A stretch of 64,000 nt of DNA, taken from positions 1-64,000 of the forward strand of contig NZ_MRCC01000015.1 of NCBI RefSeq assembly GCF_001904655.1. Direction: 5' to 3'. The DNA is from Chroogloeocystis siderophila 5.2 s.c.1 (GTDB lineage: Bacteria > Cyanobacteriota > Cyanobacteriia > Cyanobacteriales > Chroococcidiopsidaceae). The translations under genes were made by a program, and so were the position numbers. Under the pieces are notes generated by a model that saw only the letters and a program-made list of their open reading frames with translations, did no database searches and was not told the DNA's origin. Below are positions 57,071 through 64,000 of the stretch, in pieces; position 1 is the first letter of the stretch, and each line of letters begins with the position of its first letter.

Positions 57071-58273
57071 ATGACATCAGTGACCCCCCAAGCCCAGCAC
57101 AAAAAAGCTAAAGCTCTAAAATCATCTCGTCGCCCTGCAAAAGAACTTTGTAGCGAATGCGGGTTATGCGATACATATTATATTCACTATGTCAAGGAAG
57201 CGTGTGCATTTCTTAATCAACAAATTGCGGAATTAGAAACGCGATCGCACACTCGCGCCCGTAACTTAGACAATCCTGATGAATTGTACTTCGGCGTACA
57301 TCAAAAGATGATGGCGGCGCGTAAGACTGAACCTATTGCAGGGGCGCAATGGACAGGAATTGTCAGTTCTATTGCAATTGAAATGCTCAATCGCGGTGTC
57401 GTTGAAGGTGTCGTCTGCGTGCAAAATACCAAAGAAGATCGCTTTCAACCGATGCCGATTATTGCACGGACTCCAGAAGAAATATTAGCCGCACGGGTGA
57501 ATAAACCAACACTATCGCCGAATCTTTCGATTTTAGAACAAGTAGAACAGTCAGGAATGAAGCGGTTGTTAGTTATTGGTGTGGGATGTCAAATTCAAGC
57601 TTTGCGGGCTGTAGAGAAGCAACTAGGCTTAGAAAAGCTGTATGTGTTGGGAACTCCTTGTGTCGATAATGTCACGCGTGCTGGATTACAGAAATTTTTA
57701 GAAACGACGAGTCGTTCGCCTAATACTGTCGTGCATTATGAATTTATGCAAGATTTTCGCGTACACTTCAAACATGAGGATGGTTCAGAAGAAACAGTAC
57801 CTTTTTTTGGTTTGAAAACAAATCAACTAAAAGATGTTTTTGCACCCTCGTGCATGAGTTGCTTTGACTATGTAAATTCACTCGCCGATCTCGTTGTCGG
57901 TTATATGGGTGCGCCGTTTGGTTGGCAATGGATTGTGGTACGTAATGATCGCGGACAAGAAATGCTAGATTTCGTGCAAGATCAGCTAGCAACGCAACCT
58001 GTAATGTCGAAAGGCGATCGCACTGCTGCTGTGCAACAAAGTATCCCCGCTTACGATAAAGGCGTGACACTACCAATGTGGGCTGCCAAATTTATGGGTG
58101 TTGTGATTGAAAAAATTGGTCCTAAAGGTTTAGAATACGCGAGATTTTCGATTGATTCGCACTTTACCCGCAATTATCTCTATGTCAAACGCCATTATCC
58201 TGAAAAATTAGCCGCACACGTCCCAGAATTTGCCAAGCGGATTGTCAATCAGTACAAGTTACCATCACAGTAG
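57071..58273 (+). CDS. bciB: Ferredoxin-dependent divinyl chlorophyllide 8-vinyl reductase (BciB)
   Basis: The 400-residue protein belongs to the F420-hydrogenase beta-subunit family and matches Slr1923 of Synechocystis (BciB), which reduces the 8-vinyl group of divinyl (proto)chlorophyllide to make monovinyl chlorophyll. Cysteine clusters ELCSECGLCDTYY, LVIGVGCQIQ and FAPSCMSCFDYV can ligate two [4Fe-4S] clusters; FAD binding is expected. The related plant enzyme is hydroxymethyl chlorophyll a reductase. ATG at 57071. Its 3' end overlaps the 3' end of the leftward eboF by 9 bp. Confidence 0.93.
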   Translation: MTSVTPQAQHKKAKALKSSRRPAKELCSECGLCDTYYIHYVKEACAFLNQQIAELETRSHTRARNLDNPDELYFGVHQKMMAARKTEPIAGAQWTGIVSSIAIEMLNRGVVEGVVCVQNTKEDRFQPMPIIARTPEEILAARVNKPTLSPNLSILEQVEQSGMKRLLVIGVGCQIQALRAVEKQLGLEKLYVLGTPCVDNVTRAGLQKFLETTSRSPNTVVHYEFMQDFRVHFKHEDGSEETVPFFGLKTNQLKDVFAPSCMSCFDYVNSLADLVVGYMGAPFGWQWIVVRNDRGQEMLDFVQDQLATQPVMSKGDRTAAVQQSIPAYDKGVTLPMWAAKFMGVVIEKIGPKGLEYARFSIDSHFTRNYLYVKRHYPEKLAAHVPEFAKRIVNQYKLPSQ

Positions 58274-59626
58274 ATGCGACAAAATGACATCGTAGACATC
58301 AGTTGCTTCTAAAGTCGAGCCTGGAAGCGAATCTTGCGTTATCAATAACGGTGCTTCATCCGTAGTAGTGGGAATTCGTCCGTGCGAACCTTTGACTAAT
58401 GAAGCGTCTAAGGGAATGATATCCATGAGGGTGCGAAATCCAAGTTGCTTTTGTAGCAAGATTTTTGCGACCTTTAATTGTTGCCAGCGAATCGTCGGAT
58501 CGACAAATAATTCTACAGGATCATAGCCTGGTTTGCGGTGAATATCAACGGTGCGAGCAAAATCGGGTGCTTTTTGGTCATCGAACCAGTAATAATAAGT
58601 AAACCATGCATCAGGGGTAGCAACAGCGACTAATTCACCCGAACGTGGATGATTTAAATGATACGCTGCTTTACCTTCTTCACCTAAAACGAAATCAACT
58701 CCTGGTACTTGTTCGATCAGTTGTTGTACTTCTGCTATTTTGGTGCGATCGCTTACATAAATATGCGCAATTTGGTGATCTGCAACGGCAAAAGCTGCGC
58801 TTGCGCCAGGATCTAAAAGTTCTCTTCCAAGTTCTTCCCTAACTGCTAAATAACCATGTTCGCGCAAAACTCGATTCAAGGAAACTGCACGACTAACAGG
58901 GGTAATGCCATATTCTGAAAGAACAATGACTTTAGCAGAATGCGACTCGTAGAATTGAATTAACTCTTGACATACGGTATCTATTTCTTGCAAGTCATGC
59001 GCAATTGCACTGATATCAGTTCCGACTCTTTGTAAGCAGTAATCTAAGTGTGGTAGATAAATTAACGTTAGCGTTGGCGAAGACATTTCCTCGAGTGCGA
59101 TCGCGGCTTGTGCAATCCACTGCGTCGAGCGTATGGTTGTTTTTGGTCCCCAAAATTCAAATAAGGGAAAAGTCCCTAAACGTTCTTGCAACTTAAATCT
59201 TAATTCCGCAGGTTGCGTATAAATATCAGGAATCTTTCTACCATCTGCGGGATACATCGGTCGTGGCGTTACCGAAATATCAACTGAGGAGTACATATTA
59301 TACCACCAAAAGAGATTCGCGCAGGTGAAACTAGGGTCTAAAGCGCGCGCTGCTTCCCAAATCTTTTGGGCTTGAACTAACTTATTCGACTGTCGCCAGA
59401 ATTTCACCTCACACTCATCGCGGAAGTACCAGCCATTCGCAACGATACCGTGATCTTGAGGATACTTACCAGTTAAATAACTTGCTTGTACCGAACACGT
59501 CACCGCGGGTAATACAGGATTAATAGAGGCTATTTGTCTTGATGCTGCCCATTTTGATAAGAATGGCGCGTGCTTTAATAAACTGGGTGTTAATCCGACG
59601 ACATTCAGAACTACAGTTTTGTGCAT
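58265..59626 (-). CDS. eboF: EboF, NPP-type phosphodiesterase family protein with degenerate metal site
   Basis: The 453-residue protein belongs to the nucleotide pyrophosphatase/alkaline phosphatase superfamily, and position at the end of the cluster fits EboF. The nucleophile Thr is present (LPAVTCSVQASYLTGKYP), as is the final metal His in KGSHGRIP. In contrast, the first metal ligand of canonical NPPs (isiDG) is replaced in LNVVGLTPS, the next motif is LDYCLQRVG (its GH replaced) and the SDHG motif is LSEYGITP. It may therefore bind rather than cleave. ATG at 59626 was chosen; the upstream frame to 59683 is encoded by repeat DNA. No signal peptide is visible. Confidence 0.85.
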   Translation of the reverse strand: MHKTVVLNVVGLTPSLLKHAPFLSKWAASRQIASINPVLPAVTCSVQASYLTGKYPQDHGIVANGWYFRDECEVKFWRQSNKLVQAQKIWEAARALDPSFTCANLFWWYNMYSSVDISVTPRPMYPADGRKIPDIYTQPAELRFKLQERLGTFPLFEFWGPKTTIRSTQWIAQAAIALEEMSSPTLTLIYLPHLDYCLQRVGTDISAIAHDLQEIDTVCQELIQFYESHSAKVIVLSEYGITPVSRAVSLNRVLREHGYLAVREELGRELLDPGASAAFAVADHQIAHIYVSDRTKIAEVQQLIEQVPGVDFVLGEEGKAAYHLNHPRSGELVAVATPDAWFTYYYWFDDQKAPDFARTVDIHRKPGYDPVELFVDPTIRWQQLKVAKILLQKQLGFRTLMDIIPLDASLVKGSHGRIPTTTDEAPLLITQDSLPGSTLEATDVYDVILSHLL

Positions 59627-59668
59627 AAGGTTTGACAAATTCTTCCTTATTAACGTTTGTGGCTGATT

Positions 59669-59758
59669 CGGTTGAAACCGCATCTACAAAGGCAAAACCT
59701 ATTTTGTAGTTAGTCCACGCAGGTGGACTTAGTATGTTAAGCGGTGACTTCAGTCGCC
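59669..59758. repeat. Modular interspersed palindromic repeat (copy 5), overlapping eboE 3' end
   Basis: CGGTTGAAACCG (59669-59680), AGTCCACGCAGGTGGACT (59712-59729) and GGTGACTTCAGTCGCC (59743-59758) occur in series between eboF and eboE. The last palindrome lies inside the eboE reading frame and encodes its final residues ATEVTA next to the stop codon. Confidence 0.85.
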
Positions 59759-60954
59759 AAATGTTGCAATATCCATTCGTATTCTCGCTGAATTGAGGCG
59801 AGTAAATCGAGTTTCATTGCTGGTGGTAAAATATCCCAGGTATAAGTTTCAATTTCTAGATGGTGACATTGTTGTTTCCCTAACAAATTAAGAACCGCAA
59901 CAATATCATTTTGGGTAGATTGCAGCGTTTGGTAATCGTGAATAAAAATCGGAACGTGAAAATGTGTTCGCCACTCTTGGGCTGTTGATTGTGCTAGATG
60001 AGGTAACGCTGTGCTTAAATCTGAATAGTGGTGTAATGTACCATCGTGCGATCGCGCAATAACTTGGTGTAAATAGGTCGATTCGGCAAACGAACTCAAT
60101 TTATCACCAATAGCTTGACGCTGAGTAACTTCATCAGGTAATGTCACTCGAATTGCTGCACTAATTTGAATTTTACCAATAGAAATTCCTGCGGTTTGTA
60201 GCCGTGTAAAAGCTGATTTGGGATCTTCAAATTCTACAGCAAAATGACAAGTATCGTAGCAAATACGGATGTGTTCGCGTAATAATATTTCTGCTACAGT
60301 TTGAGAAATTTCTAAAATTTCTGCCAGATATCTTCCGCCAATTGGTAATAACCAAGAGTCAAAAAAATCAATGACTTCTGTTGTATTTTCGATTAAGCCA
60401 TCAGGTTCAGGTTCTAAATCAAGATGCAGTAATTTTCCTGTTTGTTCGCGAATGCGGATCATTTCTGCCGCGATCGCGGCTACATTGCGAGTCGCAGTTT
60501 TGAACGCATCGTCTGTACTGAGTTGTGCAAACCAAGGTTTGTAAGACAAGGGAAGTGTTGAAATTCCACCATCGATACCTGCGGGTAACAACGCTGCGAG
60601 AATTTGGGTCAAATTTAATGTGTAATCGAGGCGATCGCGCGATCGCCAATCGGGTGCATACACTTTATCTTTAACAACTTGATGATGAAATCCACCGTAG
60701 GGAAAACCGTTTAAAGTAAAGACATACAAGTCATTTTGCTGTAACCAAGCTTGAAATTGTGCGAGGCGATCGTTTTCTAGTAATTCACTCGCTGCTTGGG
60801 CTGATAACCGCAAACCAATACCAAAGGGTTTATCTGGTGCTAGCCTGGCTTTAAGTTCAGGAATATATTTCTCTAAATTTGCAAATACATCTCGCCACGA
60901 TTCCCCAGGATGAACATTTGTGCAATACGTTAGGTGAATATTCGCTAGCTGCAT
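59737..60954 (-). CDS. eboE: Metabolite traffic protein EboE (TIM-barrel, sugar isomerase/epimerase-like)
   Basis: The 405-residue protein has a xylose-isomerase-like TIM-barrel pattern and belongs to the ebo cluster between eboD and eboF. Relevant segments are NIHLTYCTNVHPGESW at the start, LHLDLEPEPDG and RICYDTCHFAVEFEDP in the barrel, with acidic and His residues suited to metal or substrate binding, and FHVPIFIHDYQTLQSTQ near the end. ATG at 60954 was chosen; the longer frame to 61017 starts inside repeat DNA and adds 21 unrelated residues. The last residues and stop are also encoded by a repeat module. The enzymatic role is not known. Confidence 0.88.
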   Translation of the reverse strand: MQLANIHLTYCTNVHPGESWRDVFANLEKYIPELKARLAPDKPFGIGLRLSAQAASELLENDRLAQFQAWLQQNDLYVFTLNGFPYGGFHHQVVKDKVYAPDWRSRDRLDYTLNLTQILAALLPAGIDGGISTLPLSYKPWFAQLSTDDAFKTATRNVAAIAAEMIRIREQTGKLLHLDLEPEPDGLIENTTEVIDFFDSWLLPIGGRYLAEILEISQTVAEILLREHIRICYDTCHFAVEFEDPKSAFTRLQTAGISIGKIQISAAIRVTLPDEVTQRQAIGDKLSSFAESTYLHQVIARSHDGTLHHYSDLSTALPHLAQSTAQEWRTHFHVPIFIHDYQTLQSTQNDIVAVLNLLGKQQCHHLEIETYTWDILPPAMKLDLLASIQREYEWILQHLATEVTA

Positions 60955-60976
60955 TTTTCTTATATATTGATTAACA

Positions 60977-61064
60977 GCGGTTGAAACCGCAGCAACACAA
61001 ACCAAACCTTGTATCATTAGTCCACGCAGGCGGACTTTGTTTATGTAGAAGTGAATTTATTCGC
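60977..61064. repeat. Modular interspersed palindromic repeat (copy 6), overlapping eboD 3' end
   Basis: GCGGTTGAAACCGC (60977-60990) with AGCAACACAAACCAAACC, then AGTCCACGCAGGCGGACT (61019-61036), then GTGAATTTATTCGCC (61051-61065). The last palindrome lies in the end of eboD and contains its stop codon (TAA from GGCGAATAA on the minus strand). Confidence 0.85.
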
Positions 61065-62259
61065 CGTTGTCGTGATGTTGTTTTAAAAGCGCGATCGCAT
61101 TTTCATACACCAACAAATCGACGTGATGCACCTCAACGCCTTTACCAATTTTTTCTAGCAGCATCAGCGTTAATTCTCCACCCAAATGTTCTTGAAACTC
61201 TCTTAATCCTCGGAAAAGACAATTAGGATGTTCGAGTTGATGCAAGTGTGTGGCTAATTCTGGTACGTATAAACTAAAACCTAGTGCTTTGAGTGTATCT
61301 AAAATCTGTTGCCAATCTGATTTTGTGAGTAACCCAATTAAATAGGAGTAGGTACTATCCAACGCAATTCCGATCGCAACAGCTTCGCCGTGACGTAGGT
61401 TGTAATTCGTCAACTGTTCGAGTTTATGCGCCGCCCAATGTCCAAAATCTAAAGGGCGCGAGGAACCTTTTTCAAAAGGATCGCCACTTGTAGCAATATG
61501 TCCTAAATGTAGTTGGGCGCAGCGATAAATTAACTCTTGCATCGCCTGCATATCGCGTTTTGCGATCTTCGCTGCGTGTTTTGTGATGAAATTAAAAAAG
61601 TCTGCGTCTTTAATCAGTGCAACTTTTACCGCTTCCGCAATTCCAGAACGCCAGTCGCGATCATCAAGCGTTGCGAGAAAATCAAGATCGTTTAACACTG
61701 CGTATGGTGGGGCAAAAGTTCCTAAGAAATTCTTCTTACCAAACGCATTGATACCATTTTTGACACCGACACCCGAATCATTTTGTGCTAATACTGTTGT
61801 GGGAACGCGAATTAAGCGAATTCCTCGATGTGCGATCGCTGCTGCATATCCTGCCATATCTAATACTGCACCGCCACCAATGGCTAATATATACGAATGG
61901 CGACACAATCCAGCACAATCAATAGTTTGGTGAAGTTGTGTGACTAATTGAGGATTATTTTTTGCGGCTTCGCCACCAGGTACGATCGCTGGCTGCTGAA
62001 CAAATATCAATGCATCGCGATAAAACTCAGCATATGCGGCTAATTTTTCTAGTAGTCTGGGTTGATGTTGCAATAAACCTGCATCAATTACTGCTAACAC
62101 TTTTTTTGGGCTATTCTCCTCACAGGTAAGTACTTGCGCGAAAAGAGGATTATCTAACTCGAACAGCCCTTGTGTGAAATGAACATCATAATTAAATGTT
62201 ACAGGAACACATTGCTTGAGCGAATGCACATTTGGTGCACCTTTTATCCCAATTGTCAT
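61057..62259 (-). CDS. eboD: EboD, 3-dehydroquinate synthase-like sugar phosphate cyclase
   Basis: The 400-residue protein belongs to the sugar phosphate cyclase superfamily (AroB, valiolone synthases), EboD branch. It keeps NAD- and metal-binding features: IGGGAVLDMAGYAAA, RVPTTVLAQNDSGVGVKNGI, AEAVKVALIKD (metal Glu) and HWAAHKLEQL with LRHGEAVAIGI (His ligands). The ring-closure substrate is not established for EboD. ATG at 62259 was chosen over a TTG nine codons upstream (62286) that would overlap eboC. It starts 13 bp after eboC. The C-terminal residues run into the repeat module at 61052. Confidence 0.92.
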   Translation of the reverse strand: MTIGIKGAPNVHSLKQCVPVTFNYDVHFTQGLFELDNPLFAQVLTCEENSPKKVLAVIDAGLLQHQPRLLEKLAAYAEFYRDALIFVQQPAIVPGGEAAKNNPQLVTQLHQTIDCAGLCRHSYILAIGGGAVLDMAGYAAAIAHRGIRLIRVPTTVLAQNDSGVGVKNGINAFGKKNFLGTFAPPYAVLNDLDFLATLDDRDWRSGIAEAVKVALIKDADFFNFITKHAAKIAKRDMQAMQELIYRCAQLHLGHIATSGDPFEKGSSRPLDFGHWAAHKLEQLTNYNLRHGEAVAIGIALDSTYSYLIGLLTKSDWQQILDTLKALGFSLYVPELATHLHQLEHPNCLFRGLREFQEHLGGELTLMLLEKIGKGVEVHHVDLLVYENAIALLKQHHDNGE

Positions 62260-62272
62260 AATTATTGTTAAA

Positions 62273-63169
62273 TTACGTAACAGCAAAAATTTGAGCTAAA
62301 CTCAACGAAATTGGTAGTAAACCGAGAACCAGCAAGCCATAAGGTAAACCTGCAAAACCTGCTGCGATCGCCGCATCTAAAACGATCAGCGACAACACAC
62401 CCGCTTTAACTGCGGTACGAATATTTGCCGGAGTTGCTTCGCGCCAAGCTTGCACAAATGCAGGAATAACACGCCAAGCAAATAATACAATCAAAGGTAA
62501 AGCCACAAGTGTTTGATATTCTGGTATTAACCCTAGCGTTAAGACTCCACTTATCACTCCTGCAATCAGCACCAATGCAGCAATTCCAGTACGATTGTTT
62601 CCCCCGTGAACTTCGCCTTGACTAATTAGGGTAATTGCAGCGATGTAAGCAATTGGAATTATTGCTAAAAACCACAATTGTTCTACCATCGCCGGAACCG
62701 CACTCACACCTAGTAGCAGATTTCCACCGCGACAGATTCCCATATTAATAGGACCAAAAATATTATGGTGTTTGCTAAAGGCATCGTAGACAATCGCTGC
62801 GAAAGCAACCGTCGTAGCAATCACAAGGCTTGTAACTGAAACTTGGGTAGCGGCGACAATACCAAGAACTAAAAGAAGAGTTCCTAAAGCGATCGCATTT
62901 TGTTTAGCAATCATACCACTAGGTATCGGTCGCTCTGGGCGTTCTTGCGCGTCTAATTCGGCATCAAAGACATCATTAAAAACAACACCACCGCCGTACA
63001 AACCACTGGTTGCAACTAATAGCCAGACTAATGACATATCTACTTGTTGCCATAATCCTGAACCGGATGCCGCAAAACCAACTAAAATATCTGCCCAAGC
63101 TGTAACAATATTTGCAGGGCGCATAAGTTGCAAATAAGCCCAACTTTGGCTTTTCGCTGCTTGCAACAT
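62273..63169 (-). CDS. eboC: EboC, UbiA-like prenyltransferase
   Basis: The 298-residue integral membrane protein matches UbiA-type prenyltransferases with about eight helices. The first Asp-rich motif is NDVFDAELDAQERPERPIPS and the second region DAFSKHHNIFGPINMGICRG, which bind Mg2+ and prenyl diphosphate. It lies between eboB and eboD, so it likely attaches a prenyl group to a product of the cluster, an inference. ATG at 63169 was preferred over a TTG five codons upstream; a purine-rich GAGAGACACC precedes it. Confidence 0.92.
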   Translation of the reverse strand: MLQAAKSQSWAYLQLMRPANIVTAWADILVGFAASGSGLWQQVDMSLVWLLVATSGLYGGGVVFNDVFDAELDAQERPERPIPSGMIAKQNAIALGTLLLVLGIVAATQVSVTSLVIATTVAFAAIVYDAFSKHHNIFGPINMGICRGGNLLLGVSAVPAMVEQLWFLAIIPIAYIAAITLISQGEVHGGNNRTGIAALVLIAGVISGVLTLGLIPEYQTLVALPLIVLFAWRVIPAFVQAWREATPANIRTAVKAGVLSLIVLDAAIAAGFAGLPYGLLVLGLLPISLSLAQIFAVT

Positions 63170-63241
63170 TGGTGTCTCTCTCAATGCTAATGGTTAATTG
63201 GTAATTGGTATTACCTGATACTGAAAAATAAAATTGAACTC

Positions 63242-64000
63242 TTACTCAATCAAGATCTGATCGCGGCTAGCTTCGACGACGGGTGTTTGTCCGCGTAAAA
63301 CTGAGTTACCGTAGTACAGTTCGCGTTGGTCGATTGTCGATGTTAGCCAGTCACTTTCACTGAATTGATGACTTTGGCTGTATGCTGCTAGGGCATTTTC
63401 GTAACATACTGCCTTAACGTGTGCTTCAGGAATTCCGCGTTCTAGCATCAATTGTGCGGTTTTTGGGACAGCTAATGGATCGCTAACACCCCAATCCGCG
63501 CTACTATCAACAATAATGCGATCGCATCCGTACTGACGAACAATTTCAACCATCCGTGCATTACCCATTTTGGTGTGCGGATAAATTGTAAACGCTGCCC
63601 AAAATCCTCGTGCTAATACTTCTTCTACAGTTTCTTCGTTGTTATGGTCAATAATCACTCGTGATGGTGCTAAACCATATTCAATACAGCGATCCATACT
63701 TTGACTAGCACCAGCTTTTTTGTTGCGATGCGGCGTATGAATCAACACCAACATATCGAGTTCTTGGGCGAGTTCGAGTTGTTGGCAAAAGTATTTATCT
63801 TCTGCTGGTGTCATATCGTCATAGCCAATTTCACCGATCGCCACGACTCCCTCTTTACACGCGTACAATGGCAACAGTTCCATCACTGCTGCGGCTAAAG
63901 CTTCGTTGTTTGCTTCTTTTGGGTTTAAGCCAATCGTACAATAGTGCTGAATTCCAAATTGACTGGCGCGAAAGCGTTCCCAACCAATTAAACTACTGAA
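63242..64000 (-). CDS. eboB: EboB, TatD-like metal-dependent hydrolase (N-terminus beyond window)
   Basis: The reading frame is open at the right edge; 252 codons are visible and the N-terminus lies outside. It shows TatD/amidohydrolase-type motifs: CTIGLNPKEANNEAL, IGEIGYDDMTPAEDKYF (metal Glu), VLIHTPHRNK (His), VIIDHNNEETVEEVL (His) and RIIVDSSADWG (Asp). These TIM-barrel residues bind divalent metal. In the ebo clusters a TatD-like gene follows eboA, which would lie just outside. Start codons visible inside are not the true start because homology extends upstream. Confidence 0.9.
   Translation of the reverse strand, partial: FSSLIGWERFRASQFGIQHYCTIGLNPKEANNEALAAAVMELLPLYACKEGVVAIGEIGYDDMTPAEDKYFCQQLELAQELDMLVLIHTPHRNKKAGASQSMDRCIEYGLAPSRVIIDHNNEETVEEVLARGFWAAFTIYPHTKMGNARMVEIVRQYGCDRIIVDSSADWGVSDPLAVPKTAQLMLERGIPEAHVKAVCYENALAAYSQSHQFSESDWLTSTIDQRELYYGNSVLRGQTPVVEASRDQILIE

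Follow-up and report, generated by a model that had tools for sequence, protein, structure and literature searches.

Many phyla, and algal plastids as well, carry the ebo gene cluster, without which the scytonemin monomer is not exported. One of its products, EboF, is annotated in databases as a phosphodiesterase, and pathway models in the literature rest on that name. Here, we ask how much of a phosphodiesterase active site is left in the EboF of the cyanobacterium Chroogloeocystis siderophila 5.2 s.c.1, encoded in a stretch of 64,000 nucleotides that we analysed as a whole and refer to as the window, and what such a protein might be doing.

In the literature, EboF has been predicted from its sequence family to be a hydrolase whose substrate would contain phosphate (PMC5133447) or a pyrophosphatase homologue (PMC6282210), and text searches of these two papers turned up no remark on loss of the active site or its metals. 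Nor did the papers searched yield an assay of EboF for hydrolysis of phosphodiester bonds in nucleotides or phospholipids. A literature search for pseudoenzymes in this superfamily yielded nothing relevant; subscription journals were mostly outside that search, and earlier notice is possible. When eboF is deleted in frame in Nostoc punctiforme, the strain makes no scytonemin and the monomer stays in the cytoplasm, which shows that the protein is required in vivo; deletions of eboA, B, C or E give the same phenotype (PMC6282210).

The eboF gene and its operon

The eboF gene occupies positions 58265..59626 on the minus strand, that is, 453 codons counted from the start codon used by the orthologues and running to the stop. 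The longest open reading frame from the first ATG is 58265-59683 (minus strand, 472 aa), and the orthologue start is its M20, 19 codons downstream; residue numbers in this article refer to the 472-aa frame. The reading frame is intact, and the protein is 66-91% identical to cyanobacterial EboF.

It is the last gene of an eboABCDEF operon, the members of which share the minus strand within the window. The TIM-barrel protein EboE (59737..61017) and the UbiA-like prenyltransferase EboC (62273..63184) score above the equivalog cut-offs of NF035939 (525.8 bits) and NF035940 (425.7 bits), respectively. Adjacent to them are eboD (61057..62286), which encodes a 3-dehydroquinate synthase-like sugar phosphate cyclase (PF01761/PF24621), and the TatD-like eboB (63242..64000; PF01026), which is truncated by the window end and continues to 64147. 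A putative eboA, named by its position after eboB, lies just past the window end on the same contig, at about 64202-65101. The catalytic motifs expected of EboB and of the EboD cyclase are present, as read by motif, so that of the three proteins examined EboF alone departs from expectation.

Two further observations concern the surroundings. A homologue of the FrhB/FdhB-type coenzyme F420 hydrogenase beta subunit (57071-58273, plus strand, 400 aa) lies tail to tail with eboF and shares 9 bases with its 3' end. In addition, the genome to which the window belongs (5.0 Mb, 99.8% complete) has no ScyE homologue scoring above the family cut-off, so the operon may here serve something other than scytonemin; a complete ebo operon is present in this cyanobacterium without an evident scytonemin pathway.

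Fold and active-site columns

EboF scores 209.5 bits across the full PF01663 (Phosphodiest) profile, for which the gathering cut-off is 23 bits, and the Pfam seed of this family itself includes EboF sequences (PMC5133447). Searching the PDB with a single EboF sequence gave no match and a profile was needed: one built from 18 EboF proteins found Xac NPP, PhnA, and ENPPs, the best hit being 2gsn (E 7.8e-12). The predicted structure of the window protein (pLDDT 67) matched PhnA and ENPPs at Z 20-22. For an orthologue with a deeper alignment (L100, 67% identical to the window EboF), the model reached pLDDT 74 and pTM 0.81, and it superposed on ENPP5, ENPP4, and Xac NPP at Z 27.6-28.2 and rmsd 3.3-3.5 A over 339-344 residues. 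Identity to solved NPPs over the structural alignment is about 18-24%. The input alignments for the models consisted of cyanobacterial-type sequences, and confidence is low in the cap and in an insertion, DIHRKPGYDP, before the last His. By prediction, then, EboF has the fold of NPPs and phosphonoacetate hydrolase; it scores 20.3 bits against the PhnA equivalog TIGR02335, where the cut-off is 407.55.

In the NPP family, one of the two zincs activates the Thr nucleophile, and it is held by the first metal Asp, the Thr itself, and an Asp-His pair. For rat NPP3, the two-zinc ligands are D168, T206, D326, H330, D373, H374, and H483, which are reported to be strictly conserved in NPPs and alkaline phosphatases, and N227 lies near the phosphate (PMC6052110). 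At these seven ligand columns EboF reads V29, T62, D214, Q218, E257, Y258, and H434, which is not the canonical D/T/D/H/D/H/H set.

The columns were read from the EboF profile aligned with Xac NPP (2gsn), and MAFFT alignments with Bacteroidota, Novosphingobium, and PhnA homologues give the same ones (all positions below are on the minus strand). V29 (59597..59599) stands where the first metal Asp of ISIDG should be, within NVVGL, and T62 (59498..59500), in PAVTCS, is the nucleophile Thr. Of the D and H of VDEAGH, the metal Asp is kept as D214 (59042..59044), and the metal His is replaced by Q218 (59030..59032). The Asp-His metal pair of SDHG has become E257-Y258 (58910..58915) in SEYG; the change to E257 is conservative, retaining a carboxylate. 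The last metal His, in GSHG, is kept as H434 (58382..58384), in a piece of the profile alignment that is a weak segment when taken alone. The Asn that contacts phosphate in NPPs is also kept (N83, 59435..59437, in HGIVANG).

A preliminary description of this DNA had claimed that the first Asp, the GH of pDxxGH, and the SDHG pair were replaced in EboF, and that the nucleophile Thr and last His remained. Both statements hold in the profile and MAFFT alignments (D to V, H to Q, D to E, and H to Y; T62 and H434 invariant), and D214 can be added to the residues that are kept. The same description called for an alignment of the orthologues: it finds the substitutions fixed in 92/92 cyanobacterial-type sequences, and HMM, MAFFT, and motif spacing agree on the columns. 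The control set was 19 PF01663 proteins other than EboF, drawn from other cyanobacteria with one from the window's own genome: 17 carry D T D H D H in the first six of these columns, and the remaining two are badly aligned. The loss of the canonical two-metal site is well supported, and a canonical two-zinc site in EboF is therefore very unlikely.

Two ways of rescuing the lost ligands were considered. A register shift, by which N27 or D27 would replace the missing Asp, was rejected, as N, D, L, and C all occur at position 27. Similarly, Q218 is unlikely to be an essential replacement ligand, given that three haloarchaeal relatives have Leu at this position. Elsewhere in PF01663, a protein from a distant genome of the same phylum (L021:1000-1188) has VSG where IDG would stand in the first motif and lacks a clear Thr in the nucleophile column, and keeps DxxxH, GDHG, and NHG. 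It is perhaps a second, independent altered site.

Conservation across Bacteria and Archaea

How general is the altered site? In the 92 cyanobacterial-type sequences, which include a few genomes entered twice, each of V29, T62, D214, Q218, E257, Y258, and H434 is found in 92/92. In a 21-row alignment spanning Bacteria and Archaea, in which 70 of 453 columns are invariant, the same residues are 21/21 with the exception of Q218 (18/21); N83 is Asn in 18/21. With these counts, chance or sequencing error does not account for the substitutions. At the substituted positions, codons vary synonymously across 88 loci (four codons for V29, two for E257, and two for Y258).

Sampling beyond cyanobacteria consisted of plasmid records. 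The same four substitutions appear in EboF of plasmid ebo clusters from Deinococcota, Alpha- and Betaproteobacteria, Bacteroidota, and Actinomycetota, and also in EboF from a Gemmatimonadota plasmid. Four haloarchaeal plasmid relatives, about 35% identical to EboF, keep V, E, and Y, and three of the four have Leu at Q218. The bacterial and haloarchaeal forms make up one clade (93/99), with long outgroup branches. No intermediate between canonical and EboF sites was found in the material searched, which comprised cyanobacterial genomes, plasmids, and the contigs of the nearest genomes, and the viral contigs searched contained no relative. Cyclase, UbiA, TatD, and sugar isomerase-like genes lie beside eboF in several bacterial phyla and in haloarchaea. 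As far as sampled, these alignments indicate that the replacement of four ligands is a clade-wide property of EboF and not local decay.

In ebo-like clusters of Streptomyces, a gene for inositol-3-phosphate synthase lies beside the eboF-type gene (L107:343-1497, L111:196-1383), as it does in haloarchaea (L113:7830-9026, L114:7743-8942, L115:7727-8914); Pfam confirms the assignment in L107 and L113. In these Streptomyces and haloarchaeal clusters, where UbiA, TatD, and sugar isomerase genes are also found, an EboD-type cyclase is not annotated, and it is possible that one cyclitol-forming enzyme was swapped for an unrelated one. The word "inositol" is absent from the text of the two main ebo papers. 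Ebo-like clusters with an EboF relative at 34-35% identity are carried by the haloarchaeal plasmids L113-L116, and the text of the 2016 survey, searched for archaea, names archaea only in connection with UbiA proteins.

What the altered site may do

With the canonical site gone, the choice is between a protein that binds and one that still catalyses. The preliminary description had offered two options, a pseudoenzyme binding a phosphorylated metabolite or an altered metal site. Loss of the canonical site, common to both, stands; either option may be right, and fixed substitutions together with new invariant residues and a Thr that is always kept somewhat favour a rebuilt, working site over a decayed one.

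These new residues fall into two motifs. The first, DHQIAH (D302-H307, 58763..58780, minus strand), has D302, H303, Q304, and H307 invariant in Bacteria and Archaea, and it is a candidate for replacement chemistry. The second, DIHRKPGYDP (D380-P389, 58517..58546, minus strand), lies in the insertion before the last His; in it, H382, K384, and D388 are invariant and might serve as ligands or phosphate-binding residues. All seven are missing from the canonical relatives aligned with EboF by MAFFT.

We consider it slightly better than an even bet that EboF is a separate subfamily of the NPP/PhnA fold with a rebuilt active site, acting on a phosphorylated ebo intermediate and probably an enzyme. 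The rebuilding would have happened once, apparently before the bacterial and haloarchaeal forms split, and have been fixed since. The usual two-zinc site presumably cannot form, because the Thr-activating site has changed from D, D, H to V, E, Y and the other site keeps an Asp and a His only. One metal, or a different metal, could instead be bound near D214 and H434, helped by E257 or by the new His residues H303, H307, and H382, which may be placed in the pocket. The substrate would be a phosphorylated intermediate of the ebo pathway, such as a cyclitol phosphate or a prenyl-linked compound from EboD and EboC, and the chemistry would proceed via T62 or an activated water; EboF would not be a general nucleotide pyrophosphatase. 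That EboF is still catalytic rather than a dead binder is, in our judgement, somewhat more likely, and a working site is favoured by a Thr that is never lost, by the new invariant polar set, and by substitutions fixed in two domains. It is important to remember that a protein that only binds would also be strictly conserved if its ligand were demanding.

The fully specified version of this reading is more tentative, and we consider it less likely than not. It holds that EboF is an alkaline-phosphatase-superfamily enzyme that has given up the two-zinc site for a new set (T62, D214, E257, Y258, H303/H307, H382, K384, and H434), with one metal, another metal, or none, and that it acts on a prenyl-cyclitol phosphate serving metabolite export in Bacteria and Archaea.

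The main rival, a real possibility to which we nonetheless give a minority share of belief, is that EboF is a pseudoenzyme. Here the fold and a phosphate cradle (T62 and N83) would have been kept and catalysis lost, leaving a phosphate- or metabolite-binding protein or a scaffold of the ebo system. Replacement of four of the seven metal ligands, and a Q218 that is not conserved in haloarchaea, fit such a protein, and the ebo mutants all share a phenotype that looks more like failed transport than like the loss of a single chemical step (PMC6282210). Against this, the Thr nucleophile, D214, and H434 are the same in every sequence aligned, and strict conservation of E257, Y258, and many new polar residues extends across two domains; a scaffold usually needs less. 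Eukaryotes, moreover, have eboF without the other ebo genes (PMC5133447), which argues against a role purely as a scaffold for partners.

It is improbable that EboF keeps ordinary two-metal phosphodiesterase chemistry, with E257, H303, H307, and H382 supplying ligands at the same positions. The retained carboxylate of E257, several additional invariant His and Asp residues, and the full-length fold match to NPPs would suit this reading, but V29 and Y258 delete two ligands of the Thr-activating site, for which the alignment offers no substitute. Position 27, close by, is too variable to provide one, and the canonical relatives are without this set of residues. Misalignment, a pseudogene, or an assembly error, an explanation that low identity to solved NPPs might have invited, is already refuted by concordant HMM, MAFFT, and motif spacing, an intact reading frame, and substitutions fixed in 92 sequences.

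With the two-zinc site lost and the loss fixed, the phosphodiesterase label should not be inherited by EboF.

Among the closest known systems is the EboF family of PMC5133447 and PMC6282210, of which the window protein is an orthologue in the same operon. Phosphonoacetate hydrolase (PhnA; 1ei6, 3szy, 3t02) has a fold in common with EboF (Z 26, 352-359 residues aligned with the L100 model), but PhnA of Caballeronia has the complete canonical D T D H D H H set and EboF does not. With the NPP/ENPP enzymes (Xac NPP 2gsn/7n1s, ENPP4, and ENPP5), the fold is common along the whole length of the L100 model, and EboF keeps from their active site the nucleophilic Thr, the Asn at the phosphate, one of the metal Asp residues, and the final His. 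It differs from them at four two-zinc ligands, where D, H, D, and H are V, Q, E, and Y in EboF, and in two motifs of its own, DHQxAH and the inserted IHxKPGxDP.
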